DNA from: Panorpa germanica
Taxonomy: Eukaryota > Arthropoda > Insecta > Mecoptera > Panorpidae
Length of the DNA stretch: 64,000 bases
NCBI GenBank assembly: GCA_963678705.1
Contig: OY783220.1
Coordinates: 3,555,001-3,619,000, forward strand
Direction: 5' to 3'
Position 1 is the stretch's first letter; each line of letters begins with the position of its first letter. The position numbers and the translations under genes were made by a program. The notes below the pieces were generated by a model. That model was not told where the DNA came from. It did no database searches and was given only the letters and a program-made list of their open reading frames with translations. This document shows positions 1-48,248 of this stretch, in pieces.

Positions 1-95
1 TTTTTTTTTTATTTAGGCTTTGGCTTATTCAACCTTCTTGCCGATCATATTTTTAATTTGTCTTTTAATTTTAATCAGTCTTTCTAATTTGTTTC
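1..95 (-). mobile_element. LINE 3' end, cut by window edge
   Basis: The first bases are a T run followed by ATTTAGGCTTTGGCTTATTC. The same block ends the full-length LINE at 27.6 kb, where it follows the poly(T) at 27642-27658. Read on the minus strand it is a LINE 3' UTR and poly(A) tail. After about 35 bases it diverges from the long copy, so this is a related subfamily or an old copy. No coding sequence is left. The right edge is approximate. Confidence 0.7.
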
Positions 96-211
96 ACATG
101 TAACGTGTATTTTTAACATCATATCTACAGAGTGTTTATACGGTTCAAATTCTTATCTTATTTGTTTTAATACTATCAGTCTCAGTTCATTTGTTTTAAT
201 ACTATCAAATT

Positions 212-288
212 AAGTTCATAATAACCAAACCCAGAAAATATCTATCTGGTCCGGGGATCGAACCCGAAGACACAGCAGTCGGCGTAAC
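212..288 (-). mobile_element. tRNA-derived SINE, truncated
   Basis: This is the reverse complement of the SINE head seen whole at 8241. It keeps the pol III B-box core (GGTTCGATCCCCGGACC on the minus strand), the following TTTTCTGGGTTTGGTTATTA block, and the TGCTGTGTCTTCGG block. The A-box side and the 3' body are missing. Confidence 0.75.
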
Positions 289-299
289 GTACATTGCCG

Positions 300-1418
300 G
301 TAGTATATTGGTCACAAAGAAAACAATGCACTGAAAATGTTCCCATTCAATATACCTTACCCCAGTAAGACCGGAAACTTTTAGCACATTTTTGCCATTG
401 CACTTTAAAGCTGATAGAAAGAATAAAAGAGTAAATGTGGTTGCATACGACCATCATATTCTCAAATGGGAAAAATGTCTCCATCGAGAATTATATACAC
501 AAGCAATTTATGGTGTTTAGCTGCAAGACAAGTTGTGTGAAAATATAACCACACTTTTCGCCACGAGAAACCAAGAACCTGGTAAACTGATGACGCCCGC
601 AGTGTTTGTTCTGCACTTGTATTTTTATAGACTGTGCACCAAGCATGTACCGCTTAAACGTGTTGGAAATTTCTTAAGTATGTTAATTATTAAGAAACTT
701 AATTTCTTAACCTGTTATTACTAGAGTAAAGATAACACAGACATTTTAGCATAGCGGTCGGTGTCTGGCGTTATACAGTGAATACATACAACACAATATA
801 CAGGGTATAATTAAATAAATGAATGTTATTTATAATTTAATGTTTTATTATACCATTAAACCATAGAATCATGCATCTTATGAATGTAATATTAACGCCA
901 TAGTTCATTTCACGTTCGTTTCTTTCTATAAGCCGAGAAAATCCACATAAAAAAGTTTTTATACGTAATATTCTTACCATAAATCCTATTTTTTAGAGAT
1001 TGTATTTTTTGTCCGTGGAAATATAATGTTCTATCATTTAACTGTGGTAATGGTTCTCTGCATACACACTCGTACCGTATATTCGTTTAGTAAGTAAACC
1101 ACATTTTTGTGCAAAGCCATGCAGACCATACGAAAACGGTCAATACGGCAAACATGGAGGAGATTATTTTGCTGTAATAATTTATATTATGAAAATGTGT
1201 TCCATATATTTTCTGAGGTCAGTAATATGACAACAGATTTGGCACAAGTGCACTTTGAACCCATTTAGTGTGCTGTATGCGCTCTGCATTGTATTCGCTT
1301 CAGAGAATATTATAGGATTCTGTTACTCGTGTTTATTTGAGTTTAGTATTGAGTATGTCGTATGTTTTTATGATTTGACTTTTAAGTAATCTATAATGGT
1401 AGTAATTTCCGTTATACG
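300..1418. other. AT-rich intergenic, nothing recognised
   Basis: I see no convincing ORF, splice-site pair, repeat or RNA gene here. Short open frames near 533-724 look like chance in AT-rich sequence. Confidence 0.5.
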
Positions 1419-1438
1419 TATATATATATATATGCGTA

Positions 1439-1504
<66 letters not shown>

Positions 1505-1516
1505 ATATATATATAT
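1419..1516. repeat. (TA)n microsatellite
   Basis: Nearly pure TA dinucleotide with a few interruptions (TATGCGTATATT near 1431, ACC near 1503). It can fold on itself and is probably length-polymorphic. Sequence from here to 2227 is AT-rich with nothing recognised. Confidence 0.95.
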
Positions 1517-2227
1517 AAAGTTATTTATTTAAATAATATAATGGAATTTTGTAATTAAAGATATAAATGTATATTGTTGTACTCGAGAGCTTTTTTGAAT
1601 TTTACAAAAACTTTTTCAAAATGATAAACTTTTCAATTAAATTTTTTTTCCTTTTTATGTTTTATGTTTAACCATTATTACCTAATTTTATATGCGTAAT
1701 TATATTTTTCTAAGCGAATATTTTATTCTGAAAAAAAAAGTAAAAAGAAATATAAAAATAAAACAGAATAATACAATAATAATCATAATATGAAATTATG
1801 GAAAGCTTTGAAGAAATAATAATATATTTTGAGTTAAATGTTAATTTTCACAACATGTAACAACATTCCGACTATTTTCCGGAATTATAAGTACGAAATT
1901 GAAATATTTAATATTAGACTGTCAAAAACATGAAATATATCTACCATTCGTTTATAATAATTATTTTCTAAAATTGGATTTCATTAACTGTAAAAGCTGT
2001 GCTTTTGAATATTCGATCATATAAATCGTGGCAGGTTTCGTTTATTTAAGTTACTCATTACATAAAAAGTTATTTTTTAAAGTGTGAATAAATAATGTAA
2101 AGTTTGATTTTAGAAATTACACTGGATAAAAAGGAAACTTTCGGAGAAGTTATTAAAAAAAGTTGTCTCTTATTTTTAAAACACCTTAGATACTAAAATA
2201 TGTAAATGATACTTATATATAAAAATA

Positions 2228-2442
2228 CAGCAATGGCAAGAAATGGACTCCAAAGGGCGGTGCTAAAATTTCGCAGACGCTTCCTATTAACACCGCCTTT
2301 TTAATTGAGAAACCGAAATTTGTAACAACAGTGGCTTTGAACAGATCATTCTTGTTGTCGGGATATAAAGTATAAGAAGAAGCAGAACAATATTAGGGGC
2401 GATAAAAGGCTACGTGCCTAGGAAGCCCGAGAAATTATAATT
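2228..2442 (+). mobile_element. LINE family B, 5'-truncated 3' end
   Basis: Closely matches 19230-19450: ATACAGCAATGGCAAGAAATG at the start, then ACCGCCTTTTTAATTGAGAA, and the terminal GCCTAGGAAGCCCGAGAAA. It encodes the last residues of an ORF2-type protein, but with base changes from the better copy at 19 kb. A purine-rich tract follows at once. Confidence 0.8.
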
Positions 2443-2454
2443 CAACAAAAAAAG

Positions 2455-2745
2455 ATACATATTTATATAGTTCAATGGAAGACGATAATGACGAAGAGAA
2501 ATCAGAGGATAAAAGAACGAGGATAAGAAGTATTATAACGAGGATAAGAAGTAGAGAAGGATAATAGCGGAAAGACGGTAGTTCAGACGCAGTATAATGG
2601 AATGGAAATAAAACAGAATACAAATTGGAAAAGAAAGACTAGATCTAATTCAAGAAAGGATGGGGAAGCGGAGAAGGTCAAAATAAAGATTAGAAAAAGG
2701 GAAAGGAAGACTATGAGAAGATGAAAGAGAGAGAAATGTTTAAGA
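2455..2745 (+). repeat. Purine-rich tract after LINE B 3' end
   Basis: Nearly all A and G on the plus strand (runs such as GAAGACGATAATGACGAAGAG and GGGAAAGGAAGA). It produces spurious open frames on both strands. A similar purine tract follows another LINE B 3' end at 50.8 kb. It could be old expanded tail sequence or an independent microsatellite-like tract. Confidence 0.55.
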
Positions 2746-2749
2746 CTCT

Positions 2750-4227
2750 TTTACAAATACGATACGTAATGTAAATTAATGTTATTGTTAATTACAGAAC
2801 GAAAGAACCATTGCCCTAAAATTTCATCTAATTATATTTTAAAAGAGATATAAGAATTATAGTTCAATGGAATTAAGTAGTGGAAGTTCGCCATCGAACT
2901 GTGCATTTTGGGTAAGTAACAATTCTCCTTTTTCATAATATAAAGAAATCATTCCTGAGTTAAAATAAGGTTGCAATAAGTTTTCCTCGTTCATCTTCAA
3001 AACTAAAAATTTTGTGAAGAGCCTTTTTGTGGATAATAATATTATCCACAACTTTTATAAATAAATTCAAATTATAACTTTTATAATAAAAAAGTTACAA
3101 GCTAAAATGAATTTTAAATTATTTAGACTAATATTATTACTATTGCAGTAAATAAGATTAAATTCAACTAGGTTTTGCTTAAGTAGAATATTATATGAAC
3201 ATAAGGTAACATCCATATTTAATGTTCTGCAGGTTAAATAAAAATATAATGACAATATTGATAATTAAAAATATGTAAAATACATTGTGAGAAAATAAGT
3301 CTGTAATAAAAATATTCATATATTCCAATTCTTTGTTACTTTATCTGAATATATTTGCATAAAATGAATTTATTTCACGTGTTAATTGTTCAAACACTTC
3401 TGTTTTTAACGGGTTACTGTACATGTACCTATGTACAGTGTGGTCAACAAAACCATAACTTCGTTCCATATCAAATTTTTTTGTTATGAAAAAATAATAA
3501 CTCAATTATATGATTATTTTGTTAGTTATGAACCGAAAACCATTTTAACATGAAACAAGCTCTCTGGGGTGCTTTTTATTTTATTACATACTCATTTGGG
3601 TTATTGTTAGTATTATATTAACCCGTTTCATGTTTTAAATATATCGTGCCGTGACGTGTGCTGCTACTCGTAAACATATTCTTTTGTGGTTGCGTCTGTC
3701 TGTGGCTTTACCTTTGTCTACATCAGTGGGTATACTCACACCAATGTTAATATGACATTAAACCTAAAAGCATTACATTTTTATACACTCGTCCATGTAT
3801 TTGATATGTTTATAACTAAATAACAATTTATAATATTTTAGCGCTATTATCTAACGTGTATTTATATAAAGATTTACTTTATAAAAAATTAATTCAATTT
3901 TGTTGCACGAAATCGACTTCTGAACTCGGAATAATCACGTGATTAAGTTTTACGCAATTAAAAATAAAAATTAAATTGCTGATAAATAAAATATCGATTA
4001 ACTTGAAGAAACATACAAAGTTTCGAACTGAAATAAAGTTAAACAATTAATAAGTGTAGTAATTATAATTTTAGTAAAGGAAAGAAGGTTTAAAGACTAG
4101 TCCTGATAAAATTATATTAACTATAATAAGAATTAAAAGTATTCATTGAAAAATTCGAGTTGGTATTTTCAAAATAAGATTATTTAATATTTCAATCTCT
4201 AAATTTTACGTGGAATAATAAATGCGA
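2750..4227. other. AT-rich intergenic, nothing recognised
   Basis: No coding exon, RNA or clear repeat seen. The short minus-strand frames at 2857-3051 and 3067-3255 lack any recognisable motif and have A/T-driven composition. Confidence 0.5.
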
Positions 4228-4395
4228 TTAAAACCTTTCAAACGAATACTATATTTTTGTTAAATGATTTTAAATTAATTAGTGAATTATTTAAATATAC
4301 GTTTTGTATTAGAAGAAATCAAAATAGGTTTATAAATTATATTTAAAATAATTATATTTATAAAAAAATTAACCATGTTAAAGAATATAGTAATG
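4228..4395 (+). mobile_element. Decayed LINE 3' end (family D)
   Basis: The stretch TTTTTGTTAAATGATTTTAA followed by AATTAGTGAATTATTTAAAT aligns by eye with 6505-6560 in the better preserved copy (6371-6660). Heavily mutated, with no open frame. Confidence 0.4.
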
Positions 4396-4424
4396 GAAGT
4401 GCTAAATAATGTTACTGTATATAA

Positions 4425-4680
4425 GTAACCAGTAAATGCAAATCATCATGTATTATTTAACGTAATATGTTTTACATAACGTTACGTTTTATTATTTACA
4501 TGTAATTAAATAAATGCAAAACAGATTGAAATTTATTTTCTACTATATAATTTATTAAAAAATGCTGCATAAAAGAATTTATTGACGTCAAAAAATATTA
4601 ATTTATGTGGAGAAATTACTTTTGTTATGTAATCTTATATTATATTAACCTAAAAAATTGTATGTACGGGTAAACTTTTT
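4425..4680 (+). repeat. Old dispersed repeat, copy 1
   Basis: Resembles 5925-6240 in order and content. Shared blocks are TATTATTTAACGTAATA.., ACGTTACGTTTTATTATTTA.., AATAAATGCAAA.. and TTTATTGACGTCAAAAAAT... The family is unknown. A shorter trace of the same end (TTGTTATCTTAAATAAACC) occurs near 50220. Confidence 0.4.
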
Positions 4681-5397
4681 GTAAACATGTTTATAATTGT
4701 ACTTAATGTGTTTAATATATTTATATAATTAACATCATATAGTCTTACATGACAAGTTTTATTTATGCGAGGAAACGTAAAGTTACTTCAAAGAATATTT
4801 TTATATTAACCCAAAAAAAATTATTATAAGAAATAAACCAATGTACCTACATATGTGTATTGCAAGTAACTGGTCAAATAGCGAAATATTGCATCGGAAA
4901 TTCTCTAATTTACTAGTCTTTCACGATTTAGCATTTTATAAACTTGCGTAGCAGAAAGCTACAACAGTTACAACAATTCTTCTGACTCGAAATTTTTCTA
5001 AGCGACATTGATACTGCACTGTAGATTCTTTGGAATAATTCTATAAGGGTCGTTATACTAATTCTAAATTTATTTCACTTTTAATTGATCTTAATCATTA
5101 AGATATTAATTGCTTCATAATTAGTAAGTTCCAATTAAAATATTCATTTAACACAAATAAGTAGGTACTCCTATTAAACTAAGGGCCAACCTAGTCTTAG
5201 TAAGCTGAGAACAACTTACATGCATTATTAATAATTATTCAATTCAAACGTTTCTCAAAAATGTTTTAAGTATAATAAAAGCGATAATAAAAATTTTGTA
5301 AGTTCTGAAAAACTTGGAAAAGTGTTTTCGGTTTCTTACTTAATAAAATCATTAGTAATTAAAATATAAAATATTTGATAATAATATTAAGTTGAAA

Positions 5398-5523
5398 ATG
5401 AAATTAGCAGCATTTGAAAACTGTGTAACAATAAAACAAGATGCTGCAGCACCTGAGTTGGAAAATAATAGGGCTAATGAAGTGTTAACACCATCCGGAA
5501 GCAATATGGTGCTGGACTATTAA
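5398..5523 (+). CDS. Possible short ORF, 41 aa, unrecognised
   Basis: An ATG at 5398 opens a 41-residue frame ending at TAA 5521. Its composition is less A/T-driven than the surroundings: it begins MKLAAFENCVTIKQDAAAPE and ends SNMVLDY. I recognise no domain, signal peptide or membrane segment. It may be a terminal exon, a pseudogene fragment or chance. No upstream splice acceptor was convincing. A longer hydrophobic frame begins at 5529 but is probably spurious. Confidence 0.2.
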   Translation: MKLAAFENCVTIKQDAAAPELENNRANEVLTPSGSNMVLDY

Positions 5524-5924
5524 GGATAATGTTTCTGTTAAAGACATTCGAATCGTTATTATTATTCTTATTAATTGTTCTGGTAATCTTAAGTAATTAT
5601 AACTTTATTTGTTTATACCGATACTTATTTTGGTGTAGTTGTTGTAAGGTAAAAACATTTTCCAAATTCTGTTACATATTAACCTGCTTAACACAATTAT
5701 ACGTATATATACATGTATATGTATATATTTTACATCAAAAATATTATAGCAAAAGTATTGAAGTATTTTCAGTATGTAAAGAATTTTTACATATAGTTTT
5801 ATTATACGTAATATATCAATATTTTTAATTTATGTGGTTTATGCCACTAAGTAACTTTTATATAGCAGACACGTTCAGTAACTAATTTATAGAAATATAT
5901 ACCTACCAAACACAAAATTTATAT

Positions 5925-6240
5925 TCATGTAATATTTAACGCATAATTTTTATCTAACGTCACCTTTTATTATTTATTGAAGTTTAACATCATTCTGTTA
6001 CCGCATTGTTATTTAATAAATGCAAACGATATTGAAAATCTTTTAATAACATATTAATGCATTATGTACGATTATATAATCTGGCAAAGAAAGTTTTATT
6101 AACGTCAGAAAATGTCATTTTATGTCGAAAGATAAGTTTTGTTAAAAGATAACAGCAAGAAAAGATGAAAGATAAAATGTTATGTAAACTTATTTATGTT
6201 AGATAAACCTTAAATGTATGTTACTGCGATTAGCGGGTTA
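5925..6240 (+). repeat. Old dispersed repeat, copy 2
   Basis: Partner of 4425-4680: ATGTAATATTTAACGCATAA, ACGTCACCTTTTATTATTTA, TTTTATTAACGTCAGAAAAT. The region ends with TAGATAAACCTTAAATGTA, which also recurs near 50235. Confidence 0.4.
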
Positions 6241-6370
6241 TATTCTAATAAATTAGTAATAAAAAAGAAATTGTATTCTTCCTGAATGTTGTTCATATAT
6301 AAATTAAATTATACGACAAAATTTTACTTAACTACGAATAACGTGTTCCCTTGTATAAAATTAATATTAA

Positions 6371-6660
6371 ATCTGACGATAGATGCCAATGTGGCGAACT
6401 ATGAACTTTAGATAATATTATATTTGAATGTATAAATTATAGTGAATACAGATAAAAATTCAATAGTGAAATATTAGATGTGACTAAAACTTTCTCTGTT
6501 AATTTAAAATTTTTGTTAAGTGATTCAAAATGAATTAGTGATTATTCAAATATTTAGACAATTGTAAAATAGAATTATAAATTTCATGTAAAAGTATATA
6601 TAAAAAATAGATGATGGTGGCTACGGTTTATAAATGTCAAGGTTAAATAAATTAAATTAA
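6371..6660 (+). pseudogene. LINE ORF2 C-terminal remnant and tail (family D)
   Basis: A broken plus-strand frame reads RCQCGEL..LDNIIFECINY. This resembles the C-terminal cysteine/histidine motif after the RNase H domain in the intact LINE here (CRCGEEGSLDHIILGC). Several stops follow, then an AT-rich 3' UTR ending GTTAAATAAATTAAATTAAA with an A-rich tail. It is a 5'-truncated, dead insertion. The tail resembles the end of the SINE in this window, which suggests this LINE type may have mobilised the SINE. Confidence 0.5.
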
Positions 6661-7000
6661 AAAAATACACCAAATTTTAAATATTTTTTAAAATTGCATT
6701 AAAACGGACAGTAATAATAATAAAAATACAATAAATTAACAAACGTAATACCATTTACCCACTAAGCGTATTAAATTTCAGAACAAATAAAAATGTACAA
6801 TAATACAAAAATTTTACTTTAACTATTTTTAATGTGTAGTACATGTTATTCTAGCTGCAAATTTTTCAAAATATCTTTACTAAAAAGTAATCCATAAATT
6901 TTATTATATGTATCAAAAAACATATTGTTAAAAGAAATTGCTTTCTGCCACTAAAAATCTTTACTCAAAAATATTATTATCTTTAAATTAATTCGTCTTC

Positions 7001-7001
<1 letters not shown>

Positions 7002-7080
<79 letters not shown>
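7002..7080. repeat. (TA)n microsatellite
   Basis: About 80 bases of nearly pure TA with one AAATA interruption. Flanks 6661-7001 and 7081-7980 show no gene. The stretch 7300-7375 carries near-repeats of TATCGT (GCCGTATCTTATCGTATCCT). Confidence 0.95.
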
Positions 7081-7087
<7 letters not shown>

Positions 7088-7980
7088 ACACACTTAAATA
7101 ATAATGAAATTAACACTTACTTTAAATCAGTTTCAAGAAATAACAGTTTATCCATTAACACCATAAAATAATATACCACACAATATTTATAATAAATCCA
7201 TTAGCAATAAAAATAGAACAATTCCATAAGTGTCAAAGCACCACACTCTCCGTGAAGACGCAAAGGATATCACGAATAAATTTAAAAGACAAGGACACGG
7301 CTGTACGATATCGTGCGCTACGGCAATACGGCGATAAGACTCCTGCCGTATCTTATCGTATCCTGTCGTATGTATTACATGAAATAATCTGCTAGCCTGT
7401 AACAACGTATAAGAACGCGAACGTTTTGCCCGGGCTCTAGACCAGCACTGACTTTATCCCAACGTTTTACAACCCTATATCAATGATAAGGTTGCGCAGG
7501 ACCAAAAAGAAAATTCATCCCCACTCAAAGTTTCTGTATATCTCAAAAAAAAAGTGGGGGGGATTTGATCTGTTGCGAGCTTTAGGAATGAGATTTAGGG
7601 GGTAGTTGAAAGCATCATCACAGCAAGAGGAGAACGAGAATGATCGTGTGTGTGGGGGCGGAAGGCGGGGGACAATGCGTTTGAAGAGATCTTTCCTGAG
7701 GGACAATTGGAGGACTTTGGTTTACAATATATATAGTGACTAGGGTAATGACACTATTTAGTAAATTGAGTCGTCTCAAAGAGGATGACACAAGGATTCA
7801 GCCTGCCGAAGAAATACGCTATTATATACGTTACTATTTCCTATGTTTTGTGTCAATTCTTTTTCTTGCCTTTGCTGGATTTAATGACTAATTTCTAATG
7901 AAGCTACTACACATCACAGTACCAGTATGTTTTGTTGAAACATTACAATGTTAGGTTTACTGTTTAACATTTTTATGATT

Positions 7981-8224
7981 AGGGGTCATCCATTAATTGC
8001 GTCACACATAAAAGGAGAGGAGGGGATCGTCAAAATATGACAAATAGGAGGTAATAGGCAGCGTAACGTTACATTTAAACTAAAATTTGAAATGCATAAA
8101 AAACAAGTCCAAATAAAAAGACTAGGATTATTTTTTCAAATGAGTGACATCATGATACTGCGGGTACACATAGAGTGACAAATGGGGAGTAAAAACCATT
8201 AAATTTGTGTGACGCAATTTATTT
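7981..8224. mobile_element. Short TIR element (MITE), family T
   Basis: The left end GGGGTCATCCATTAATTGCG continues TCACAC. The right end, read in reverse complement, gives AATAAATTGCGTCACACAAA. These are imperfect terminal inverted repeats around a 240-bp non-coding body. The right terminus appears clipped where the SINE target site begins. A longer relative with similar ends lies at 62247-62946. Superfamily not assigned. Confidence 0.6.
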
Positions 8225-25971: not shown

Positions 25972-27611
25972 CTAGCGGACCCGACAGACGTTGTCCTGTA
26001 CACACGTCTTTAATTTCATACTTTTTTTAATGAGCTGAAACAATCTGGACCGCTTTGATGAAAATTATTAATGAAAAGTTATTACTTTGTTAAATAAATA
26101 ACAGCATCGTAAATGAAAACTTTAACTCATTTTAATGAAAGGTGAAAAAGCTTGCACTCAAAACATTTTATAACATATATATTTATTTATTTTTAATTTA
26201 CAAAAACTTAATTTAGCGTAATGCCATTGGATGTACAATATTTTTAGTTAGTCCATGAGGAGTATAAACAAACAAACTCGATGATTTTCCAAAATGTCCA
26301 CAATTTCTCGTTCCTCCATCTGTTCTATATGGTTGTAAACGCAGCGTAATTTACGAATTTTCCGTAAAAATAATTTCGATTGAGATGTGATTCCAGCTAA
26401 AAGCGTTTTTAAAGGTTCTGGTGGTGCTTTTAGCGGTGGCAGTGATATTTTTCCAGATGCGCAACATAAACCAGCTGATTCACCTTTGTACTTGAAAGCA
26501 TGACAATGTTGACACTCTTTGTCCATACTACCAATCGTGATCAATGCATGTGATGAATAATCTATTTCAGGATCATATTCAAACGCGAGACGATTAAGTG
26601 ATGCTCGTGCCAATGCTCGATTATCTTGTACTCGCTGTTGGTTACGTTCTCTATGTGCGTTGGTCGCTCGTTGACGTGCCTCTCGTTGTCTTAATGTATT
26701 AGCACGAAGACGTTGAGCACGTTGCTCTAAATTTTCATTTGCACGTGTACATGCAGCTCGATCTCTTAAATTTACATTATCCATAGAATGTTCTTCTACT
26801 GTTCTATTCAATCGATGATCATGAACTAATTGCGCGTGCTGAGTACGTCGACCAATATTTCTTGCTCTTCCACGAAGACGTGGCATTTTTCTACAAAAAT
26901 AAAATATTGCAAAATAATATACAATTAATATGAGTTACTTATTGATAATGAATTTTTAATTAATTAACTCAAAAGATTTATTATGACAAATTTTAGATAA
27001 AGAACATGTAATCGCATTTTATGAGTTTTTTTATTTAATATCTCCAAAAATGAATTAATTGTCAATAAAAATAATTAAAAAAATTCAATCCTCTAACTAC
27101 ACAAATAAACTTGAAGGTTATGTTGGTTGTTAATAAACGCATGATAGCGCCATCCGTCGAATCTGATGTAAAACATTCCAAAATCAAAAACTCCTTACAA
27201 ATAAAAATTAATTAAAAAAACATCTGAATTCACAAAATTATTTATACACACTTCAAAACTCTTTAAAAAATAATTACATTTAATATTTTAATCAGCACAT
27301 GAATTGAATAACAAAATTTTTTTCAAATTAATCGTAGCACCATCTGTCGGGACAAACTAAAATTGAAATAGAATAATATTGAATGCGATGATAGCGCCGT
27401 CCGCCGGATCTAATGTAAAACATTCCAAAATCAACAACTCCTTATAAATAAGAAATTAATTGAAAAAACATTTTCCAGTAGACCAAACTGTAAATCTAAA
27501 CCATTCTCGAATCTCCACGAACACACACAAAAAATTTCATCAAAATTGGTCCAGTCGTTTAGGAGGAGTTCAGTCACATACACACGCACACAAGAAATAT
27601 ATATATTAAGA
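25972..27611 (-). mobile_element. Helitron, internally deleted
   Basis: On the minus strand the element begins TCTTAATATATATATTTCTT and ends GACAACGTCTGTCGGGTCCG CTAG. It is flanked by A on the 5' side and T on the 3' side, the A^T target expected of Helitrons. Length is about 1640 bp, against several kb for autonomous copies. It carries the N-terminus of the Rep/helicase protein and a trace of its C-terminus. Two similar segments (27141-27221 and 27388-27472, both with GATAGCGCC and ACATTCCAAAATCAA) indicate an internal duplication. A 349-bp relative lies at 33721. Confidence 0.85.
26248..26886 (-). CDS. Helitron Rep/helicase N-terminal fragment, 212 aa
   Basis: This ORF encodes the front end of the insect-type Helitron replication initiator/helicase. 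Residues 1-100 are a basic, Arg-rich low-complexity region. Residues 120-170 hold the conserved zinc-binding block with ECQHCHAFKYKGES and GLCCASGKISLPPL, then LKTLLAG. About residue 180 (LFLRKIRKLR) the normal protein would continue into the HUH endonuclease and helicase domains; here they are deleted. The last 30 residues come from sequence near the original C-terminus read out of frame. In the +1 frame the downstream bases encode TPHGLTKNIVHPMALR followed by a stop, which looks like the genuine helicase tail. It cannot be an active transposase. The start at 26886 is the first Met and fits the family. Confidence 0.75.
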   Translation of the reverse strand: MPRLRGRARNIGRRTQHAQLVHDHRLNRTVEEHSMDNVNLRDRAACTRANENLEQRAQRLRANTLRQREARQRATNAHRERNQQRVQDNRALARASLNRLAFEYDPEIDYSSHALITIGSMDKECQHCHAFKYKGESAGLCCASGKISLPPLKAPPEPLKTLLAGITSQSKLFLRKIRKLRCVYNHIEQMEEREIVDILENHRVCLFILLMD

Positions 27612-27830: not shown

Positions 27831-30800
27831 TTACACTTCTATATTATTTTCTATCACAAAGTTTGTTAATATTTCCGCCGTTGCTTCACTTGTCATTAAA
27901 CAGGACATATTGACTGGGAACTGTGTTACATTACATAAATCATTTAAAAGTCTATCAATTTTTGATGTTAAAAGATGACACCCTAGAATTATATGGTCCA
28001 AAGACCCTTCTTCTCCACATCTACAATTTGGTGTGTCTTTTATATTTATTTTGTATAGATGAGCTGGACATCTAGAATGCCCAGATTTCATTCGACAATT
28101 TGTTGAAATATATCTCCGTGAATGATTTTTATTAAACCATGTGGTTGTTGGAATTTTTTGATTCGCTGCAAAAAAAAATTTTCCAGTACTTTGACTTTTC
28201 TCATTATATATATTCTGCCATTCTGCCATACAATTTTCTTTAATTATTTTTTTGGAATCATTTATTGACCAATTTATTTCGATTATTTCCCCATCTACAC
28301 AAGCTTCTTTGGCCAGTTTGTCAGCCATTTCGTTTCCTTTTATGCCTACATGTCCAGGAATCCAAATAAGTTTAACATTGATATCATTTTTTTTCATTTT
28401 TAAAAGATATTCTTTAATTGAACATATTTTGTTATTATTATTGTTTTTGAATTTATTGTTATTTAAAGATACACAAACACTACGAGAATCTGTGAAGATT
28501 AATATATTTTTATTGTCAGTTTTTTGTATTATTTCTAGTAATTTCATAATTGCTGTTATTTCTGTATTATAAGAATTTGTGATGTTGTTAAGTTTGTATT
28601 TGTACTGTTGATCTGTATTATAATTGAAAATGCCAATTCCTCCAGTTTTAGAGTTTTTTTCGAATGAACCATCGGTAAACCATATACTCCAGTTTATATC
28701 ATCTTTTGTTATATATTCCATATATTTTTGATAAGTTATTTCCTTACTGTCATTCTTCTTGAACAAATTTATTTCTGTATGTATTGTTGTCATGCTTATT
28801 TCTAATGGAAATTTGAAAAAAGGTATAATGTTGTGTACCTCTAAGTTCAAGTTATTATATCTATCAAAACTAGTTAAAAGTGCCGGTTTTTTATGAGTTG
28901 TCCAATATGGTTTATTATAAAGAACATATAGTTTAGATAATCTTGTATTTAAGGGGCCACATGAGTTATGTCTGTTTTTACAAAAGAAACTGTCTGATAT
29001 TTGTTGTATTCTGATATTTACCGGAGGAATATTAGTTTGATAGTTGAGGATTTGGATTGGTGTTGAAACCATTGCACCTAATATTATTCTTAAACATTTG
29101 TTTTGTATAATTTCAATTTTTTTTAATCTTGAGTTATTTGCGGTGCAGATCATAGTACTAGAATAGTCAATATGCGGTCTAACAATAGCTTTATATATTT
29201 TTATTAAGGTTGTTGGGTGTGCGCCCCATTTGTATCCTGCTATACATCGCATCAAATTTAAGCCTTTTTGACATTTGTTAATAATATGTGCAATTTCTTT
29301 CGCCCAAGTGCTTTTCGTATCAAAGAATATACCCAGAAATTTGGTATTTGAAGTAACAGTTATATTTTTATTTCTGATGGTTATTTTTGGACTGCAGTTT
29401 ATTCTATGCCTTGTAAATATAACTATTTTACTTTTTTCTGACGATATATTTAATTTGATTTCCTTTAATAAAATATCTAGTTTTCTTAATTTCGATTGTA
29501 ATCTGTTTTGAGCTATATCTTGTGTATGACCCATACTATAAATAACCATGTCATCTGCATACATCAGTACTGTTGTGTTGTTATCTGATAATGTTGTTAA
29601 CTTTTCTGTGTATATGTTGAATAATAAGGGAGATAATATTGAGCCTTGTGGAATTCCGTGATTACATAGTATAGGACCAGTTAACTTATTATTGTATCTA
29701 ACTGTTATTTCTCTATTTTGGAAGTAGTTTATAATCCAGTTGGATATTTTGGAAGATATACCTATGTTTTCTACTTTTTCTTTTAATATTTTTAGATTAA
29801 CATTGTCATAAGCAGCTTCAATGTCAATGAAAGCAGCTATCATATAATGATTTTTACTGTATGTTCTTTGAATATCGATATTCAATATGTTTAAATTATG
29901 CTGTGTACTTCTTGTTTTTCTAAACGCAAATTGTAACTCAGGTAATCTTTTATGATGTTCGAGATACCACTCCAGTCTGTTTTTGATGATGGATTCCATA
30001 GTTTTGCCCATACATGATAGTAAAGTAATTGGTCTGAATGATTCTTCTTTGTTTGGATCTTTTCCTGTTTTTAATATAGGAACAACGATATGTTTTTTCC
30101 AGTCTAATGGTATATCAGCAGTGTTTAATGACAGATTGTATATTTGTGTAAGATGATTTATTGCATTGTCAGGTAAGTTTTGTATCATTTTGTAATTTAT
30201 TCTATCAAATCCTGTGCTACTGTTTTTATTATGATTTAACGCGAATTTTACTTCATTTTTATTTATGTTATTATCTAGAAAATTATCTTTTACGATGGTG
30301 GTGGTAGTAATATTTAAATTGTTGTTCTGTGGAAATTTTTTTTTAATGAATTCTTCTATTAAATTTTCATTATCACTTATCCTTTTAGTACTATAGCTTT
30401 TATTGTTAATTTTTCTTATATTATTCCAGACAATGTTGGTTGTTGTGTTTGGGTTTAAATTCTCGCAGAAATTTTGCCATTCTATTTTTTTTCTGGCTCT
30501 AAAATATCGTCTGGTTTTAGCTTGATGTTTTTTATAATTTAAATAATTCGCCATTGTCATGTTTTTATTAAAAATAGTTAGTGCTAATTTTCTTTGAGCT
30601 ATCATTTTATTGCACTCAGTGTCCCACCAAGACGGTTTTATTTTATTAGGAGTTATATTATACAATCTGGTAGATGGGATATGTATGTCTGCCGAATTAT
30701 TAATAACATCTCTAAATTGGTTGTATTTGTTTTCAACATCTTGGGGATTACTTGTGATTCCATTTGTGCTAAGGTTTGAAATTCTGCTTTCTATTTCAAG

Positions 30801-31559
30801 GCTATATTTCTCCCAATCTACTTTTCGGAAATTTCTCCTCGTTAAATATTCAGATGTACGGTAACGGTCTTTATTATAGTCATTCAAACAGAAAAAAATT
30901 GGGTAGTGATCACTACCTAAGCTATCTGCAAGAACTTGCCACGAAGTAATTTGTTGTGTTAACGTCATTGATACCAATGTGAGATCCAATATACTGTCCC
31001 TTGTACTGAGATTGCTTACTCTAGTTGGTTTATTATCGTTGATAATATTTAGATTTTCGTTTTCTATGAAATCTAACAATTCGTTACCTTCATACTGACT
31101 ACCTGGACAATTTATATCCCAAGCAAGATTAGTCGCGTTAAAATCTCCAGCAAGTATAACAGGAACATCTATTTGTTGTTTTATCTGTGACCAATTAGAA
31201 TTAGATAGTTTATGATTCGGTTTAGCATAGATTGATAAAATACATATTACATCAGTTTCGTTATGTGTTAAAATTATTCCAACTATTTCGACCGAATTAA
31301 ATGGGTTATTTAGCATTACTCGTTTATATTTTATAGATTTATGAATCAAGATAGCAACACCCCCGTGGGGATTATAGTTTGTATTCTGTATCCTATCTTC
31401 TCTTTCAATAAAATAACCTTTGATGTTGAAATTGATATTTTTTGTTAAAAACGTTTCTGATAGTATGCATATATGTATGTTATGCTTCTGTAACATATGT
31501 TGTAGTTCCTCTTTAATATATCTGACTCCTCTGCAATTCCATTGAATAAAATTTATCAT
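27831..31559 (-). CDS. LINE ORF2: endonuclease, reverse transcriptase, RNase H (1242 aa)
   Basis: Replication protein of the LINE: it nicks the target, then reverse-transcribes the element RNA there. Residues 1-222 are an APE-type endonuclease with N8, E35, D139/N141 in GDFNA, D192 and SDH at 216-218. Residues about 480-760 are the reverse transcriptase: FRPITLLS near 508, FIDIEAAYD with D579, GIPQGS at 635-640, YADD at 667-670, FLGIFFD near 741. Residues 957-1090 are RNase H with D963, E1000, D1024, D1080 and H1070, a full catalytic set. The C-terminal motif CRCGEEGSLDHIILGC spans 1179-1194. The Met at 31559 directly precedes the endonuclease fold, so the start is secure. Length is normal for such elements. 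No stop or frameshift is seen. How it is translated after ORF1 (206 bases upstream) is unknown. Confidence 0.93.
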   Translation of the reverse strand: MINFIQWNCRGVRYIKEELQHMLQKHNIHICILSETFLTKNINFNIKGYFIEREDRIQNTNYNPHGGVAILIHKSIKYKRVMLNNPFNSVEIVGIILTHNETDVICILSIYAKPNHKLSNSNWSQIKQQIDVPVILAGDFNATNLAWDINCPGSQYEGNELLDFIENENLNIINDNKPTRVSNLSTRDSILDLTLVSMTLTQQITSWQVLADSLGSDHYPIFFCLNDYNKDRYRTSEYLTRRNFRKVDWEKYSLEIESRISNLSTNGITSNPQDVENKYNQFRDVINNSADIHIPSTRLYNITPNKIKPSWWDTECNKMIAQRKLALTIFNKNMTMANYLNYKKHQAKTRRYFRARKKIEWQNFCENLNPNTTTNIVWNNIRKINNKSYSTKRISDNENLIEEFIKKKFPQNNNLNITTTTIVKDNFLDNNINKNEVKFALNHNKNSSTGFDRINYKMIQNLPDNAINHLTQIYNLSLNTADIPLDWKKHIVVPILKTGKDPNKEESFRPITLLSCMGKTMESIIKNRLEWYLEHHKRLPELQFAFRKTRSTQHNLNILNIDIQRTYSKNHYMIAAFIDIEAAYDNVNLKILKEKVENIGISSKISNWIINYFQNREITVRYNNKLTGPILCNHGIPQGSILSPLLFNIYTEKLTTLSDNNTTVLMYADDMVIYSMGHTQDIAQNRLQSKLRKLDILLKEIKLNISSEKSKIVIFTRHRINCSPKITIRNKNITVTSNTKFLGIFFDTKSTWAKEIAHIINKCQKGLNLMRCIAGYKWGAHPTTLIKIYKAIVRPHIDYSSTMICTANNSRLKKIEIIQNKCLRIILGAMVSTPIQILNYQTNIPPVNIRIQQISDSFFCKNRHNSCGPLNTRLSKLYVLYNKPYWTTHKKPALLTSFDRYNNLNLEVHNIIPFFKFPLEISMTTIHTEINLFKKNDSKEITYQKYMEYITKDDINWSIWFTDGSFEKNSKTGGIGIFNYNTDQQYKYKLNNITNSYNTEITAIMKLLEIIQKTDNKNILIFTDSRSVCVSLNNNKFKNNNNNKICSIKEYLLKMKKNDINVKLIWIPGHVGIKGNEMADKLAKEACVDGEIIEINWSINDSKKIIKENCMAEWQNIYNEKSQSTGKFFFAANQKIPTTTWFNKNHSRRYISTNCRMKSGHSRCPAHLYKINIKDTPNCRCGEEGSLDHIILGCHLLTSKIDRLLNDLCNVTQFPVNMSCLMTSEATAEILTNFVIENNIEV

Positions 31560-31765
31560 TTTAACTGTTTTAATTAATTATTGATTTTTATATCTGTCCT
31601 TGGTCTTGTTGTTAGATTTATTTATATATTTTATTTTATTTTATTTTCTCTCCGTTTATATAATTATTGTTGATTTAATATTTTAGTAAATTTATTAAAC
31701 GATTAGGTTTAGTGATGTGAATAGATTTTTTTAAAAATAAACTTAATTTATATATCGATGTTTTC
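31560..31765 (-). other. LINE inter-ORF spacer
   Basis: A 206-base AT-rich gap between the ORF1 stop and ORF2 start, longer than the overlaps or short gaps of many LINEs. A 78-codon frame at 31675-31911 overlaps the end of ORF1 in another phase but has no recognisable content. Confidence 0.6.
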
Positions 31766-33193
31766 TTACGAGTTTGGCCATTGTACACTAGATATTTGTT
31801 TCTTGTAGCTTCTAAGGGATTGGGATGTAATATTTGGGTCTTTGTTTGTATTTTTAATTTTGTCATCATTATTTTTATTATATATTGATGTATAGCAGGT
31901 ATCATTATCATTGTTTTCCATTGTAATATCAGGTGTCTCTTGGTTGATTTGCTTTCTGTTTTTTCCTTGATTAGTTATCTTAAGGTATGTGTCGCTTTCT
32001 TCATTGTTAGGTTTCTTTTCTTCTCTTCTTCTTTTTGGAATTGGTTCTTTAGTGGATGTCGTAGGTTGTGGTTGACTGTAAGATCTTTGTAACGAGTTAC
32101 CTGTATTTGATTTATTCACTCTGGTATTAGTTCTTCTGGTTAAAGGGTTTGGTTTGTATGTTGGAATTATGTTGATACTATTGTATTTATTAGTGATATT
32201 GGGAAAAGTCTCATTGTAGTTTAGAGCTTCAAAAGAGTTTTGAGTTCTTACTGAGTATAAATAGTCTGTATTTTTTTCTGTTAATTCTAATTTTGCTTCA
32301 TAAAAACTGAGATTGTGTTGGGCCATGAGATCTTTTATCTTGATTTGTCTTTTTTTTTCAGGACATTCATTGTCTGTAGCCTCGTGGTTAAGTTTACAAT
32401 TTATGCATGTCGGATTAGGAGATGTGCATGCAGTACGTAAATGATCTTCACTTCCGCAGAATTTACATTTTGCTACTTTTGCTCTACATTTTGTGGCTGC
32501 ATGTCCAAATTTAAAACAATTATAACATTGTATCGTCTGTTGTACAAATGGTTCACATGCTCGTCTCACTCTCCACATGTAAACATAAGCAGGAATAGCA
32601 AGTCCTTCAAAGAATAATTTCACTGTTGTACTGGGTTCATATTTAATAGCTCCGTCAACTCTTAGTTTTCGATTTAACCTTTGCACTCTCGTTACTTTAA
32701 AAGGTGGACACTCTATATTATTTAAAATTGTATCTTCCGAATATTCAATATCAACACCTTTTATAATAGCAACTTTTGTGCACCAGTAAAATGGGATAAA
32801 CGCTTCATACCCATTGTTTTTCAGCAATGTTGATTTGGTAATTTCGTTAGCTAGTACTGCATTAGCACATTGAACGATTACTCTATTTCTTCCCACTTTT
32901 TTAATTTCTATTATATTAGATTTATTGCTAATTTTACATATTATTTCTGCTAATTTAAGAGAACTAAAAAATGTATTTCCATCACTATTATTTTTAACTA
33001 TCATTACTTTATACGAGTCATATTTTGTTTCTGTGTTGTATAAATTATTAAATATTTTTTTAACATTGTCACTATTGTTATTTAAGTTTTCTGTTATATC
33101 ACTGGATGTTTTATCTGTAGGAATTGATTTGTTAGTCACAGAGTTGTTTTTATTGATCGGATTTTTATCGGGAGGTTCAACCTCCATATCCAT
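31766..33193 (-). CDS. LINE ORF1, gag-like nucleic-acid-binding protein (475 aa)
   Basis: Packages the element RNA into a ribonucleoprotein. Residues 1-55 are polar and Asn/Lys-rich. Residues about 58-215 look like the RRM-like fold of arthropod LINE gags. Three zinc knuckles follow: CYNCFKFGHAATKC (223-236), CKFCGSEDHLRTAC (243-256), and CINCKLNHEATDNEC (263-277, with the shorter CX2CX3HX6C spacing). This triple arrangement is usual for ORF1 of the Jockey/I/R1 group. The C-terminal 180 residues are low-complexity, basic and Asn-rich. The start at 33193 has a second Met two codons later. No defects are seen. Confidence 0.9.
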   Translation of the reverse strand: MDMEVEPPDKNPINKNNSVTNKSIPTDKTSSDITENLNNNSDNVKKIFNNLYNTETKYDSYKVMIVKNNSDGNTFFSSLKLAEIICKISNKSNIIEIKKVGRNRVIVQCANAVLANEITKSTLLKNNGYEAFIPFYWCTKVAIIKGVDIEYSEDTILNNIECPPFKVTRVQRLNRKLRVDGAIKYEPSTTVKLFFEGLAIPAYVYMWRVRRACEPFVQQTIQCYNCFKFGHAATKCRAKVAKCKFCGSEDHLRTACTSPNPTCINCKLNHEATDNECPEKKRQIKIKDLMAQHNLSFYEAKLELTEKNTDYLYSVRTQNSFEALNYNETFPNITNKYNSINIIPTYKPNPLTRRTNTRVNKSNTGNSLQRSYSQPQPTTSTKEPIPKRRREEKKPNNEESDTYLKITNQGKNRKQINQETPDITMENNDNDTCYTSIYNKNNDDKIKNTNKDPNITSQSLRSYKKQISSVQWPNS

Positions 33194-33404
33194 ATTGTTA
33201 ATTAACCAGTGATAATTAAATAGAAGTTACTTCACTTCTAATTAATAACACTTAATAATAATATAAATTATAATTTAAAAAAAATAAATCACGAAAAAAA
33301 AATATTATAATTTGCAAAAAAAAAAAAAAAAAAGATAACTATTTATTTTATTGTTTTGTTTATTGTAAATACGTGCGCTCACCAAGAAGACTCGATGTAA
33401 ACTG
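33194..33404 (-). promoter_or_regulatory. LINE 5' UTR and probable internal promoter
   Basis: The sequence between the target-site duplication and the ORF1 ATG, read on minus. It starts CAGTTTACATCGAGTCTTCT. A first-base CAGT is like the initiator of internal pol II promoters in arthropod LINEs (family knowledge). A T run (A run on plus, 33317-33334) splits it. Promoter function is inferred. Confidence 0.55.
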
Positions 33405-44143: not shown

Positions 44144-44337
44144 GACGACACAGTGGCCGAAAGCGTTGTTCCTTCATTCCAGACAGCTGTGTTTTCGTAT
44201 TCCATCCCCGAACCAGTATTATATTTTCTGGGTCTGGTTGTTATCAACATTAGGCAACATTTATTAGGCAGCGGTGTATTTGAGGTCATGATGACACAAA
44301 TACTGCTAACACATTTAGGTTTGACTGTTATTAAATG
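44144..44337 (+). mobile_element. SINE copy, tandem pair member 1
   Basis: GACGACACAGTGGCCGAAAG, a mutated B box (ATTCCATCCCCGAACC), TATTTTCTGGGTCTGGTTGT, TATTAGGCAGCGGTGTA, and CACAAATACTGCTAACA. The 3' tail is missing, and a second head begins 19 bases later. Confidence 0.8.
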
Positions 44338-44355
44338 TCTAACATAATCAATTAT

Positions 44356-44478
44356 GACGACACAGTGGGCGAACGCAGTGATTTCACTGACTGCTGTGTT
44401 TTCGGGTGCTATCCTCGGACCAAAGCTATATTTTCTGGGTTTGATTGTTATCAAGTTAAATTAATTATGTACATACAA
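44356..44478 (+). mobile_element. SINE copy, tandem pair member 2
   Basis: GACGACACAGTGGGCGAACG, GACTGCTGTGTTTTCGGG, CTATCCTCGGACC and TATTTTCTGGGTTTGATTGT. Truncated before a (TA)n run at 44497-44512, into which the LTR element inserted. Confidence 0.8.
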
Positions 44479-44512: not shown

Positions 44513-45135
44513 TGTGGAAACGATAGTACAATGCCACCTCTGATGTGGTAAACGAGAACTATCCAACTTCTTATGTGGAAAACAATAACCAATCCGCTAA
44601 TCTGATGTGGAATCAAGGTACTCTTATTTAATTTAGGGCAAATGTCAATTCAATTAATATTCAACTATGTAATATCTTAGTTGGTTTGTCAGGATGATAA
44701 AGAATCACATAATTGGTTTAATACATTTATTGAATAAAATAATAACGATGATAATAATAATGATAATAATAATGCTAATACAATAAGGTTACAATATAAA
44801 CGTTGATGTTTACTTTACAAATACAGAACAATGAATGCACAAACAACCTTAAATTCTAGCTAATATATACTCGGTCCTACATTAGTTTTTTCAGCTTGGC
44901 TTAAAAGGTTTGTTATTTTAATTCTAAGAATACGCCTGGTTAATTTCAATAACACATCCCCTCATGTATTCAATCAGTGGTTTAAAGTTCCACACATTAT
45001 AATTGCTTTTAACTTGTCACTTGGTTTCTACTTAAAATATATACCCTCATTAATCACACTATTTTACGACTTTTCTAGCTCGGGTGTTATAGTTACGCCT
45101 ACTTTGTACGCTTGATGTATTTTTACGATCCTACA
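44513..45135 (-). repeat. 3' LTR (623 bp)
   Basis: On plus it starts TGTGGAAACGATAGTACAAT and ends TTTTTACGATCCTACA. It has near-repeats of TGATGTGG (44537, 44599) and an ATAATAATGATAAT run near 44750. The ORF stop codon lies in its first bases: the terminal GTG TAG on minus overlaps the TGTAGG end. Confidence 0.93.
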
Positions 45136-47260
45136 CGGCCATATGACCTTGCTTTGGCCTCCAAAGACGATACGTTACTGCTGTCATCTGTTTGCTGTTC
45201 GGCACCTGACCCATAACATCTCCGGTTTCAGAATCACTGTCGTCTGAGAATACGTCCCATGGTTTCATGTGATCGGCCTTTGAAAGTGTATTAGAAGAAC
45301 CTTCCCCTTCACCGATACGTCTTACCCTATACCGTTCATTTGGGTCAACTCCTGTAATTTGATACGGTCCTAAATATTTATTATGCAATTTCAATCCAGT
45401 ACCAAACTGAGTTCTTTTTACAGCTACAATGTCCCCGACTTTGTATGTCCTAGCTGGTTTCCTATTTCTATTGAAATTCTTGCGATTCTCTTCCTGTGTT
45501 TTTAATATTTGTTTCTTGGCGTTAACACGTAACTCTTGCAAGTCATCCTCTCGCATTTCTCGATTAACTTCTTCTAACAGCTGATAGATATGCATCTCAT
45601 CTTCTGTTTTCATTGTCACACCTGTTAACAACTTGAAAGGTGTAGTATTTATGCTGCGCTGATAAGTTTTGTTTAATGCTTGCTCTTCGACCTTGCCGTC
45701 GTTCAACCAGGTTTCTACATGTTTCTCAACTTCTTCTTGTTCGCAGTAAGCCATACGTCGCGAATTTTGAAAAACAGGAACCTCATCGGTCATGTATATT
45801 TCTGCTGCTTCAGTAACCCTTGTTACTTTTGGTTCATAGGTTTCAACAAGTTCCTCAACTTTAGCCCTGGCACCTGGACTAATGTTATTACCCATGACGA
45901 TTTCGTCGTCGGCTACACCTAATTTTTTATACTGTTTACTTTCCACGTACTTTTTTCGCATGGTAATACCGTCTACGCTTATTATAGTTTCTACTTGATC
46001 TAGCAGAGGTTTACCGATTACAACACTATGTCTAGTTGTACTTGATGGAACTATTAAAAAGTTAGTACAGTACTGTTCATTGTCTACTTTTACTTGAGCA
46101 CTAAATTCACCCAAAACTTTGATTTGAAATCCTCCGATTCCAGTCAATACAGTATTGTTTTCACGCACAACCACACTGCTGTTTAATTTAAAGTAGTCGT
46201 CAGCTCTAATCAAATTCTGATCACTTCCGGTGTCAATCAGACATTTAAAACTGATACTGTCTATACTCATGTCTTTTGTCATATCGCATGTTTTATTTGT
46301 GTTCACTAACAAAGTATCACCCGTTTTATTCGCGGTACAATTTCTCGAAATATGTCCCTCTTTTTGACATTTGAAACACCTTATTTTACTTTCACTTTTA
46401 ATGTTTTTCTCACTTGGTTCGAATCTTTTAGTCCTACTGTCTTGGTTGCTTTTTCGGCACACGTTTGCCTTGTGTCCGGTTTTATTACAATTAAAACATT
46501 TTATCGCGTTTAAGTCTTTTGGTCTGTCTTTACGTACACTAAAATTATTCCTTTCTTGCACTTGTAATAGTGTCGAATCATACCGTTTTACTTTTAACAA
46601 CAAATCAGGCACTGTTTTAAAGTCACACATTGATAACACACTTATCAAGTCTTTGTTGTTTAGTCCGGCTATTATGTATTTTATCACGGCCTTTTCACTG
46701 ATATTATCACTCTTACTGGCGATCGCTTTCACCGAGTATACATAATCTTCTATTGCTTCGTTTTTTTCTCGTCGTCTCTTCATTAGTTCCATGTGTACGT
46801 CAGATTCATCGTACTCCACTGGAAAATTCCTGATTAACTCGTATTTGAACGTCGTCCAATCCTTTACTACGTTCAAACTAGCATCAAACCAGTTTCTCGC
46901 GGCACACTGCAACTTGTTGGCACCTTGATGAAGCTTCACTTTATCACTCCATCCATAAATGTCCGCTATTTCCTCCAATTTTCGCACCCAAGCTGTAGCC
47001 GTCAATACCGTGGTTGCTGGGTTAAACACAGGTATGCATTCCAGGTTCTGTGTCGGCATAAACCCATGATGATTCATTCTCTGTTCCTGTATTGTACTGT
47101 TCCTGATACTCATCTGCAATAGTTCCTTCCTAAGCCTCGTCAGCTCTGCTTGTACTCCCAACCAACTATCTTCATTAGATGTTGAGTTACCTGAGCGTCC
47201 AGCTAACAAACTATCTTCAACAGTAGTATCGTTCATGTTTACGTTATATGCCATTTTCAA
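45131..47260 (-). CDS. Gag-protease-integrase C-terminus fusion (709 aa)
   Basis: Structural polyprotein of the LTR element. Residues 1-235 are a gag-like helical region (retrotransposon gag features such as AARNWF at 120-125 and ESDVHMELMKRRREKNEAIE near 152). Two CCHC knuckles follow: CFNCNKTGHKANVC (255-268) and CFKCQKEGHISRNC (295-308). An aspartyl protease core is at 340-420 with LIDTGSD at 341-347 and a later VVIGKPLL. Residues 490-525 match the lead-in to reverse transcriptase. At about residue 527 the sequence jumps to integrase C-terminal material (TYQRSINTTPFKLLTG at 532-546, then VGDIVAVKR at 608-616 and the YLGPYQI GPY/F motif at 629-635). The whole RT, RNase H and integrase core is missing, yet the frame is kept. 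No internal stop. The ORF ends inside the 3' LTR. Confidence 0.88.
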   Translation of the reverse strand: MKMAYNVNMNDTTVEDSLLAGRSGNSTSNEDSWLGVQAELTRLRKELLQMSIRNSTIQEQRMNHHGFMPTQNLECIPVFNPATTVLTATAWVRKLEEIADIYGWSDKVKLHQGANKLQCAARNWFDASLNVVKDWTTFKYELIRNFPVEYDESDVHMELMKRRREKNEAIEDYVYSVKAIASKSDNISEKAVIKYIIAGLNNKDLISVLSMCDFKTVPDLLLKVKRYDSTLLQVQERNNFSVRKDRPKDLNAIKCFNCNKTGHKANVCRKSNQDSRTKRFEPSEKNIKSESKIRCFKCQKEGHISRNCTANKTGDTLLVNTNKTCDMTKDMSIDSISFKCLIDTGSDQNLIRADDYFKLNSSVVVRENNTVLTGIGGFQIKVLGEFSAQVKVDNEQYCTNFLIVPSSTTRHSVVIGKPLLDQVETIISVDGITMRKKYVESKQYKKLGVADDEIVMGNNISPGARAKVEELVETYEPKVTRVTEAAEIYMTDEVPVFQNSRRMAYCEQEEVEKHVETWLNDGKVEEQALNKTYQRSINTTPFKLLTGVTMKTEDEMHIYQLLEEVNREMREDDLQELRVNAKKQILKTQEENRKNFNRNRKPARTYKVGDIVAVKRTQFGTGLKLHNKYLGPYQITGVDPNERYRVRRIGEGEGSSNTLSKADHMKPWDVFSDDSDSETGDVMGQVPNSKQMTAVTYRLWRPKQGHMAV
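45670..45692 (-). other. In-frame deletion junction of the polyprotein
   Basis: The point, near residue 527, where pre-RT sequence (ETWLNDGKVEEQ) meets integrase sequence (ALNKTYQRS). An intact gypsy-type pol would hold roughly 2 to 2.5 kb more here (family knowledge). The exact breakpoint cannot be set without the parent copy. Confidence 0.7.
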
Positions 47261-47625
47261 TTTTCTCCTCGTAAAACAGTTTACACACTTTTCTGATAGA
47301 ATTCACTTGCTAGTCCTATTATAAAGTCCGTCTTATAAATTCTCGACTATTCCGCTAATGAACTATCACTTGAAAGCACTGTTTGTAGAAAACTATCTTG
47401 TATTATTCTTCTCTGTATTATTCACTTGTGTATAACTCGTAGATAACTAATCCGCACTTAGTTCAATTCGCTATGAGTTACTAATCCGCACTTCTTTGTA
47501 TTATTCACTTCGCGCACTTAGTTCAATTCGCTATGAGCTGCTAATCCGCACTTAGTTCAATTCGCTATGAGTTACTAATCCGCACTTAGTTCAATTCACT
47601 ATGAGTTACTAATCCGCACTTCTGA
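47261..47625 (-). promoter_or_regulatory. 5' leader of the LTR element
   Basis: Between the 5' LTR and the ATG, read on minus. It starts TCAGAAGTGCGGATTAGTAA, with no TGG-type primer-binding start, and contains the 34-base repeat array described next. The leader would carry packaging and dimer signals (family knowledge); none can be pinpointed. Confidence 0.6.
47441..47625 (-). repeat. 34-base direct repeats in LTR-element leader
   Basis: Five copies of CTAATCCGCACTT (plus strand) begin at 47447, 47481, 47541, 47575 and 47609, mostly 34 bases apart. Each unit also has AGTTCAATTCGCTATGAGTT or a variant. The 60-base step carries an extra partial copy (CGCGCACTTAGTTC). The position resembles the binding-site arrays in gypsy leaders, but the motif differs. 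Confidence 0.85.
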
Positions 47626-48248
47626 TGTGGAAACGATAGTACAATGCCACCTCTGATGTGGTAAACGAGAACTATCCAACTTCTTATGTGGAAAACAATA
47701 ACCAATCCGCTAATCTGATGTGGAATCAAGGTACTCTTATTTAATTTAGGGCAAATGTCAATTCAATTAATATTCAACTATGTAATATCTTAGTTGGTTT
47801 GTCAGGATGATAAAGAATCACATAATTGGTTTAATACATTTATTGAATAAAATAATAACGATGATAATAATAATGATAATAATAATGCTAATACAATAAG
47901 GTTACAATATAAACGTTGATGTTTACTTTACAAATACAGAACAATGAATGCACAAACAACCTTAAATTCTAGCTAATATATACTCGGTCCTACATTAGTT
48001 TTTTCAGCTTGGCTTAAAAGGTTTGTTATTTTAATTCTAAGAATACGCCTGGTTAATTTCAATAACACATCCCCTCATGTATTCAATCAGTGGTTTAAAG
48101 TTCCACACATTATAATTGCTTTTAACTTGTCACTTGGTTTCTACTTAAAATATATACCCTCATTAATCACACTATTTTACGACTTTTCTAGCTCGGGTGT
48201 TATAGTTACGCCTACTTTGTACGCTTGATGTATTTTTACGATCCTACA
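47626..48248 (-). repeat. 5' LTR (623 bp)
   Basis: Same length and, by eye, same sequence as 44513-45135. It should contain promoter, cap site and poly(A) signal. Read on minus, a GGTTTATTATTCAATAAA-like AT-rich stretch (47830-47850) is a possible polyadenylation region. Confidence 0.93.

Follow-up and report, generated by a model that had tools for sequence, protein, structure and literature searches.

A multi-copy Ty3/gypsy-type retrotransposon lineage that probably descends from one internal deletion and appears to preserve gag and protease

The window that we analyzed, a stretch of 64,000 nucleotides from an arthropod genome, contains on its minus strand (positions 44513-48248) an LTR retrotransposon of 3,736 nt that consists of paired LTRs and a single ORF of 709 codons. 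We put at roughly 80% the probability that this element represents a non-autonomous, recently active, multi-copy lineage of the Ty3/gypsy type that descends from one founding deletion and makes a Gag-protease product, with reverse transcriptase (RT) and integrase provided in trans. Non-autonomous LTR elements that keep gag pose the question of why selection would preserve a gene whose product others can share. In the family described here, this question becomes measurable in a single genome that offers at least 40 copies, which presumably go back to one deletion event, together with a contrast within the ORF between gag and protease, which are preserved, and the linker and RT stub, which are not. 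The published examples available for comparison come, in the sources cited below, from plants and the mouse.

The 5' LTR (47626-48248) and the 3' LTR (44513-45135) of the element are each 623 nt in length, the former being bounded by TG and CA, and their alignment revealed identical sequences; the original prediction of a young LTR element at this position is thus confirmed. All features of the element given here lie on the minus strand. The ORF (45131-47260, stop codon included) possesses 709 codons when counted from a TTG and 707 when counted from the ATG at 47254, and encodes in this order gag, two zinc knuckles, protease, an RT stub and an integrase tail. Its capsid region (residues 85-250; 46511-47008) matches PF03732 at residues 119-201 and deviates from the relatives at 8 of 20 conserved columns, while the nucleocapsid region (residues 251-315; 46316-46510) carries two CCHC knuckles, each recognized as a stretch matching PF00098. 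The aspartic protease (residues 322-435; 45956-46297) was recognized through a fold match, and the effective coverage of the fold comparison is restricted to these residues. A linker with a remnant of the RT start follows (residues 436-526; 45683-45955), which can be aligned with the beginning of the RT of full-length relatives. The post-core part of the integrase with its GPY/F module (residues 527-670; 45251-45682) was assigned from its identity to the relatives and a match to Ty3; this tail is 45-54% identical to 19 of the 22 relatives from our first protein search and 43% identical to the lowest of them. Paired LTRs, a CCHC-type gag and an aspartic protease are thus found within one element, as is characteristic of the Ty3/gypsy type. 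A protein search with the whole ORF gave no match at E 0.001, and no relatives were detected in the collections of viral contigs and genome contigs.

The untranslated leader contains a tandem repeat with a 34-nt unit (47446-47621; 5.4 copies according to Tandem Repeats Finder), and a 13-mer from the presumed primer-binding end, AAGTGCGGATTAG, occurs five times in the leader. The primer site may resemble tRNA-Leu, and the element is a candidate member of the gypsy/mdg3 group. A search of the LTR for a complement of the primer site (self-priming, at least 7 nt) found none, the 64-kb window contains no tRNA genes, and a plain polypurine tract is not obvious directly adjacent to the 3' LTR. A 66-nt direct repeat with 80% identity (44182-44247 and 44389-44454) adjoins the element. 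Elsewhere in the window, an intact-looking non-LTR retrotransposon (27831-33226, minus strand) possesses two long open frames; one of 1,248 codons has endonuclease, RT and RNase H domains, and the frame of 486 codons in front of it shows CCHC-like motifs by eye and no Pfam match. A further open frame of 228 codons (26248-26934, minus strand) likewise has no Pfam match.

To define what the element lacks, we compared it with 71 relatives collected in two protein searches (22 and 49 proteins); those with names stem from arthropods (Drosophila, Bombyx, Choristoneura, Anthophora, Colletes and Araneus). By profile, 35 of the 71 are complete in the order CA-PR-RT-RH-INcore-INtail, and hence have the pol order PR-RT-RH-IN, whereas the window element, without RT and RH, reads CA-PR-INtail. 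At the join, 34 of the 36 relatives longer than 1,200 amino acids have 644-654 residues (about 1.95 kb) more than the window element, and the remaining two have 577 and 752. These data substantiate the earlier claim that one ORF fuses gag-protease to the tail of an integrase. The relative P0023 ranks first for both halves of the ORF, which argues for one parent lineage and a deletion of one kind and against a chimera of two elements. In this protein and the other full-length relatives, a single ORF comprises the corresponding gag, protease and integrase tail along with the RT, RNase H and integrase core that are absent from the window element.

The missing part could alternatively be an intron, in which case the founder would be a reverse-transcribed spliced RNA comparable to the short GAG mRNAs of other elements. 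Drosophila copia produces a spliced short GAG mRNA of this sort. Since shGAG splicing is known in Ty1/Copia (PMC8892269), an origin via spliced RNA is possible by analogy; furthermore, the gene models of P0006 (CA(part)-PR-INtail) and P0048 skip similar parts, and P0016 is a similar fusion with a different join (P0016 and P0048 both read CA-PR-INcore(part)-INtail). However, the joins are not the same in these three proteins, and sequence is often skipped in transposon gene models, as may be the case through predicted introns in the annotated models P0006 and P0048. We consider a spliced founder unlikely.

Our search of the window's own assembly (464 Mb in 249 contigs) for other copies yielded 389 first-look candidates, the best 40 of which were scored; being the best-scoring ones, they form a set tilted towards young and intact copies. 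Each of these 40 matches the ORF along its whole length (query 1-2128 or 1-2130) with 93-100% identity, and together they are spread over 21 contigs. The same deletion junction, located in the window at 45682-45683, is present in all 40 scored copies, as had been proposed as a check of the original prediction; the 12-mer GTCGAAGAGCAA spans it in 37 copies, and the other 3 have one-base variants. In 19 of the 40, the LTR pair is free of base mismatches (a few with gaps), and in 34 the LTR divergence is at most 1%; the maximum of 2.4% was found in L038, where only 167 positions could be aligned. The divergence between copies has a median of 3.3% and reaches 6.1% at most. Codons 3-655 are open and free of indels in 34 of the 40 copies, and among the others four have one stop, L038 has three, and L039 has one stop along with 11 missing bases. 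In many copies the C-terminus is altered by an 8-nt or 2-nt indel close to codon 680, so that ORFs reach 736 amino acids.

Because the junction is common to the 40 copies, the differences among them postdate the deletion, except where recombination with undeleted elements has occurred. We determined pN/pS for the 19 copies whose LTR pairs are free of base mismatches (drawn from the best 40 of 389), and used as a neutral control the relocation of each variable column to a randomly chosen site occupied by the same base; raw ratios are not comparable with 1, since the median of this control lies at about 0.67. For the whole ORF, pN/pS was 0.38 compared to a control median of 0.67, and none of 60 relocations was as low. 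With each segment tested singly and no correction applied for the number of segments, the N-terminus plus capsid (residues 3-250) gave 0.21 (0 of 100 relocations as low) and the protease (residues 330-430) 0.18 (2 of 100). The value of 0.45 for the nucleocapsid (20 of 100) is not distinguishable from neutral, and the linker and RT stub look neutral (0.79; 53 of 100). Gag and protease thus look as if they have been preserved by natural selection after the deletion. Estimates of dN/dS from 13 copies intact over 700 codons were 0.35 for the whole, 0.19 for the capsid, 0.16 for the protease, 0.28 for the RT stub and 0.45 for the tail, with wide ranges throughout; in a test with 15 copies, the RT stub alone gave 0.33, which is inside the control range. 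Stops in codons 1-655 were found in one of 15 young copies taken from the first 30, whereas relocation gives 12-13, with 13 as the maximum possible.

The original prediction had singled out the retained integrase tail as unusual, and our data do not bear out a special value of this segment: its pN/pS of 0.58, which 17 of 100 relocations equalled or undercut, does not differ discernibly from neutrality. Stops in the tail are rarer than expected, though, with 1 of 30 copies affected vs. 19.1 expected and a count as low in 70 of 2000 controls; this hints that keeping the tail open is still slightly important. The stop test is weak by segment, and for residues 3-250 it gave 3 stop-codon sites in 30 copies compared to 4.1 by relocation, a number this small arising in 793 of 2000 controls. 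We also considered whether the RT stub has been relaxed over the long term in comparison with the relatives (regression z -2.51, rank 2 of 35; the tail has the opposite sign, z +1.73); such a relaxation is not claimed, since the branch shares from the column bootstrap overlap between segments.

The low ratios for gag and protease might also reflect a different process, namely that these genes stay good only through refreshing by template switching from a complete partner, their protein being useless to the deleted lineage. One copy on another contig (L002) is a mosaic, with an ORF 100% identical to that of the window element and an LTR only 97.75% identical, which points to sequence exchange between copies by template switching or gene conversion and is consistent with refreshing. 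However, refreshing should have reached the tail too, and its pN/pS lies above that of gag and protease. This contrast is weak, and refreshing as the sole cause appears improbable to us.

With regard to the insertion sites, the 40 copies correspond to 39 loci, since locus L035 (positions 1-8100) contains two tandem copies, the 3' LTR of the first being followed by leader-like sequence. In none of the 741 locus pairs are both same-side flanks shared. At 34 of the 39 loci, both flanks carry TA repeats of at least four units no more than 70 nt away; together, these two findings show that the copies are independent insertions into TA repeats, with a marked preference for TA microsatellites, and because the flanks are TA repeats, a target-site duplication is unreadable. 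Segmental or tandem duplication in place of retrotransposition, which could draw on the tandem pair and on a partial similarity of one flank in 16 of the 741 locus pairs, is accordingly rejected as the source of 40 copies at independent sites, and LTR pairs are near-identical within copies whereas copies differ among each other. It is equally improbable in the extreme that we are dealing with a dead-on-arrival derivative, one copy that lost its middle and owes its open frame to luck and youth: a frame is retained by chance one time in three, and identical LTRs mean that there was no time for decay, but a one-off deletion as an account of the family is refuted by the junction common to 40 scored copies at independent sites. 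The original prediction had argued from these same two facts, a frame kept against odds of one in three and young LTRs; both hold, yet alone they are insufficient to establish a lineage. A domesticated host gene is rejected on account of the position of the ORF between LTRs in 40 copies. The shared junction, the mismatch-free LTR pairs, the independent sites and the low pN/pS uphold the proposal that the lineage replicates, is non-autonomous and has kept gag and protease.

We suggest that such a lineage would operate as follows. A single in-frame internal deletion of about 1.95 kb would have removed most of the RT, the RNase H and the integrase core from the founder. The genomic RNA driven by the LTR would double as mRNA, its most likely product being a Gag-protease polyprotein that ends in an idle, vestigial RT-integrase tail. 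The Gag of the deleted lineage might form particles alone or together with that of a complete element, and the RT and integrase of the latter would copy and insert both RNAs in trans. In a lineage devoid of RT, selection for gag and protease implies that the RNA benefits from its own encoded protein, and selection on Gag requires some preference for its own RNA; Gag would thus somewhat prefer the RNA from which it was made. It is also conceivable, but rather doubtful, that the full-length parent has died out or been supplanted by the deleted lineage, which would now depend on the RT and integrase of another family for its mobilization while its own Gag-protease acts on its own RNA. The best 40 of the 389 candidates include no undeleted copy, but the ranking disfavours a full-length parent, whose match would be split into two pieces.

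Several known systems resemble the family that we propose. In the mouse, a 1.9-kb internal deletion created a single gag-pol fusion ORF in IAP 1delta1, whose RNA is reported to profit from its own encoded protein (PMC6466679, PMC7411935). Both elements are non-autonomous, have a fusion ORF created by an internal deletion, and have made many recent insertions; the in-frame deletion of the window family is common to all 40 scored copies. IAP 1delta1 loses part of gag and keeps most of pol, unlike the window element, and its need for help in trans and the cis effect of its fusion were reported from experiments, whereas we infer both for the window element. TR-GAG elements of plants have LTRs around a single gag ORF without RT and integrase (PMC8704663) and share this layout with the window element, whose ORF is not GAG-only, as it also encodes protease, the RT stub and the integrase tail. 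For the insertion sites, a parallel is provided by Spoink of the gypsy/mdg3 group, which inserts at ATAT-rich sites (PMC10965091), as the window family does at TA repeats; a Culex mdg3 family is described with a Leu primer and a 4-bp target-site duplication (PMC3286476). Among titles and abstracts of the open-licence literature, we found no arthropod lineage with gag, protease and an integrase tail. Closest in content are RLG_Sabrina_SA and RLG_WHAM, two semi-autonomous Gypsy families of wheat whose coding capacity comprises gag and protease and lacks RT and integrase (PMC9744471). Like them, the window family combines an intact gag-protease ORF with the absence of RT and integrase core and with many copies, and the wheat elements are thought to feed a shared system. 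They differ in their plant hosts, in having no integrase tail in the parts of the report drawn on here, and in having a proposed autonomous partner, RLG_Wilma, whereas a supplier in trans is presumed for the arthropod element. Gag-protease elements are already known from wheat, gag-only elements from plants and a gag-pol deletion fusion from the mouse, and the window family is a new example of this known kind.
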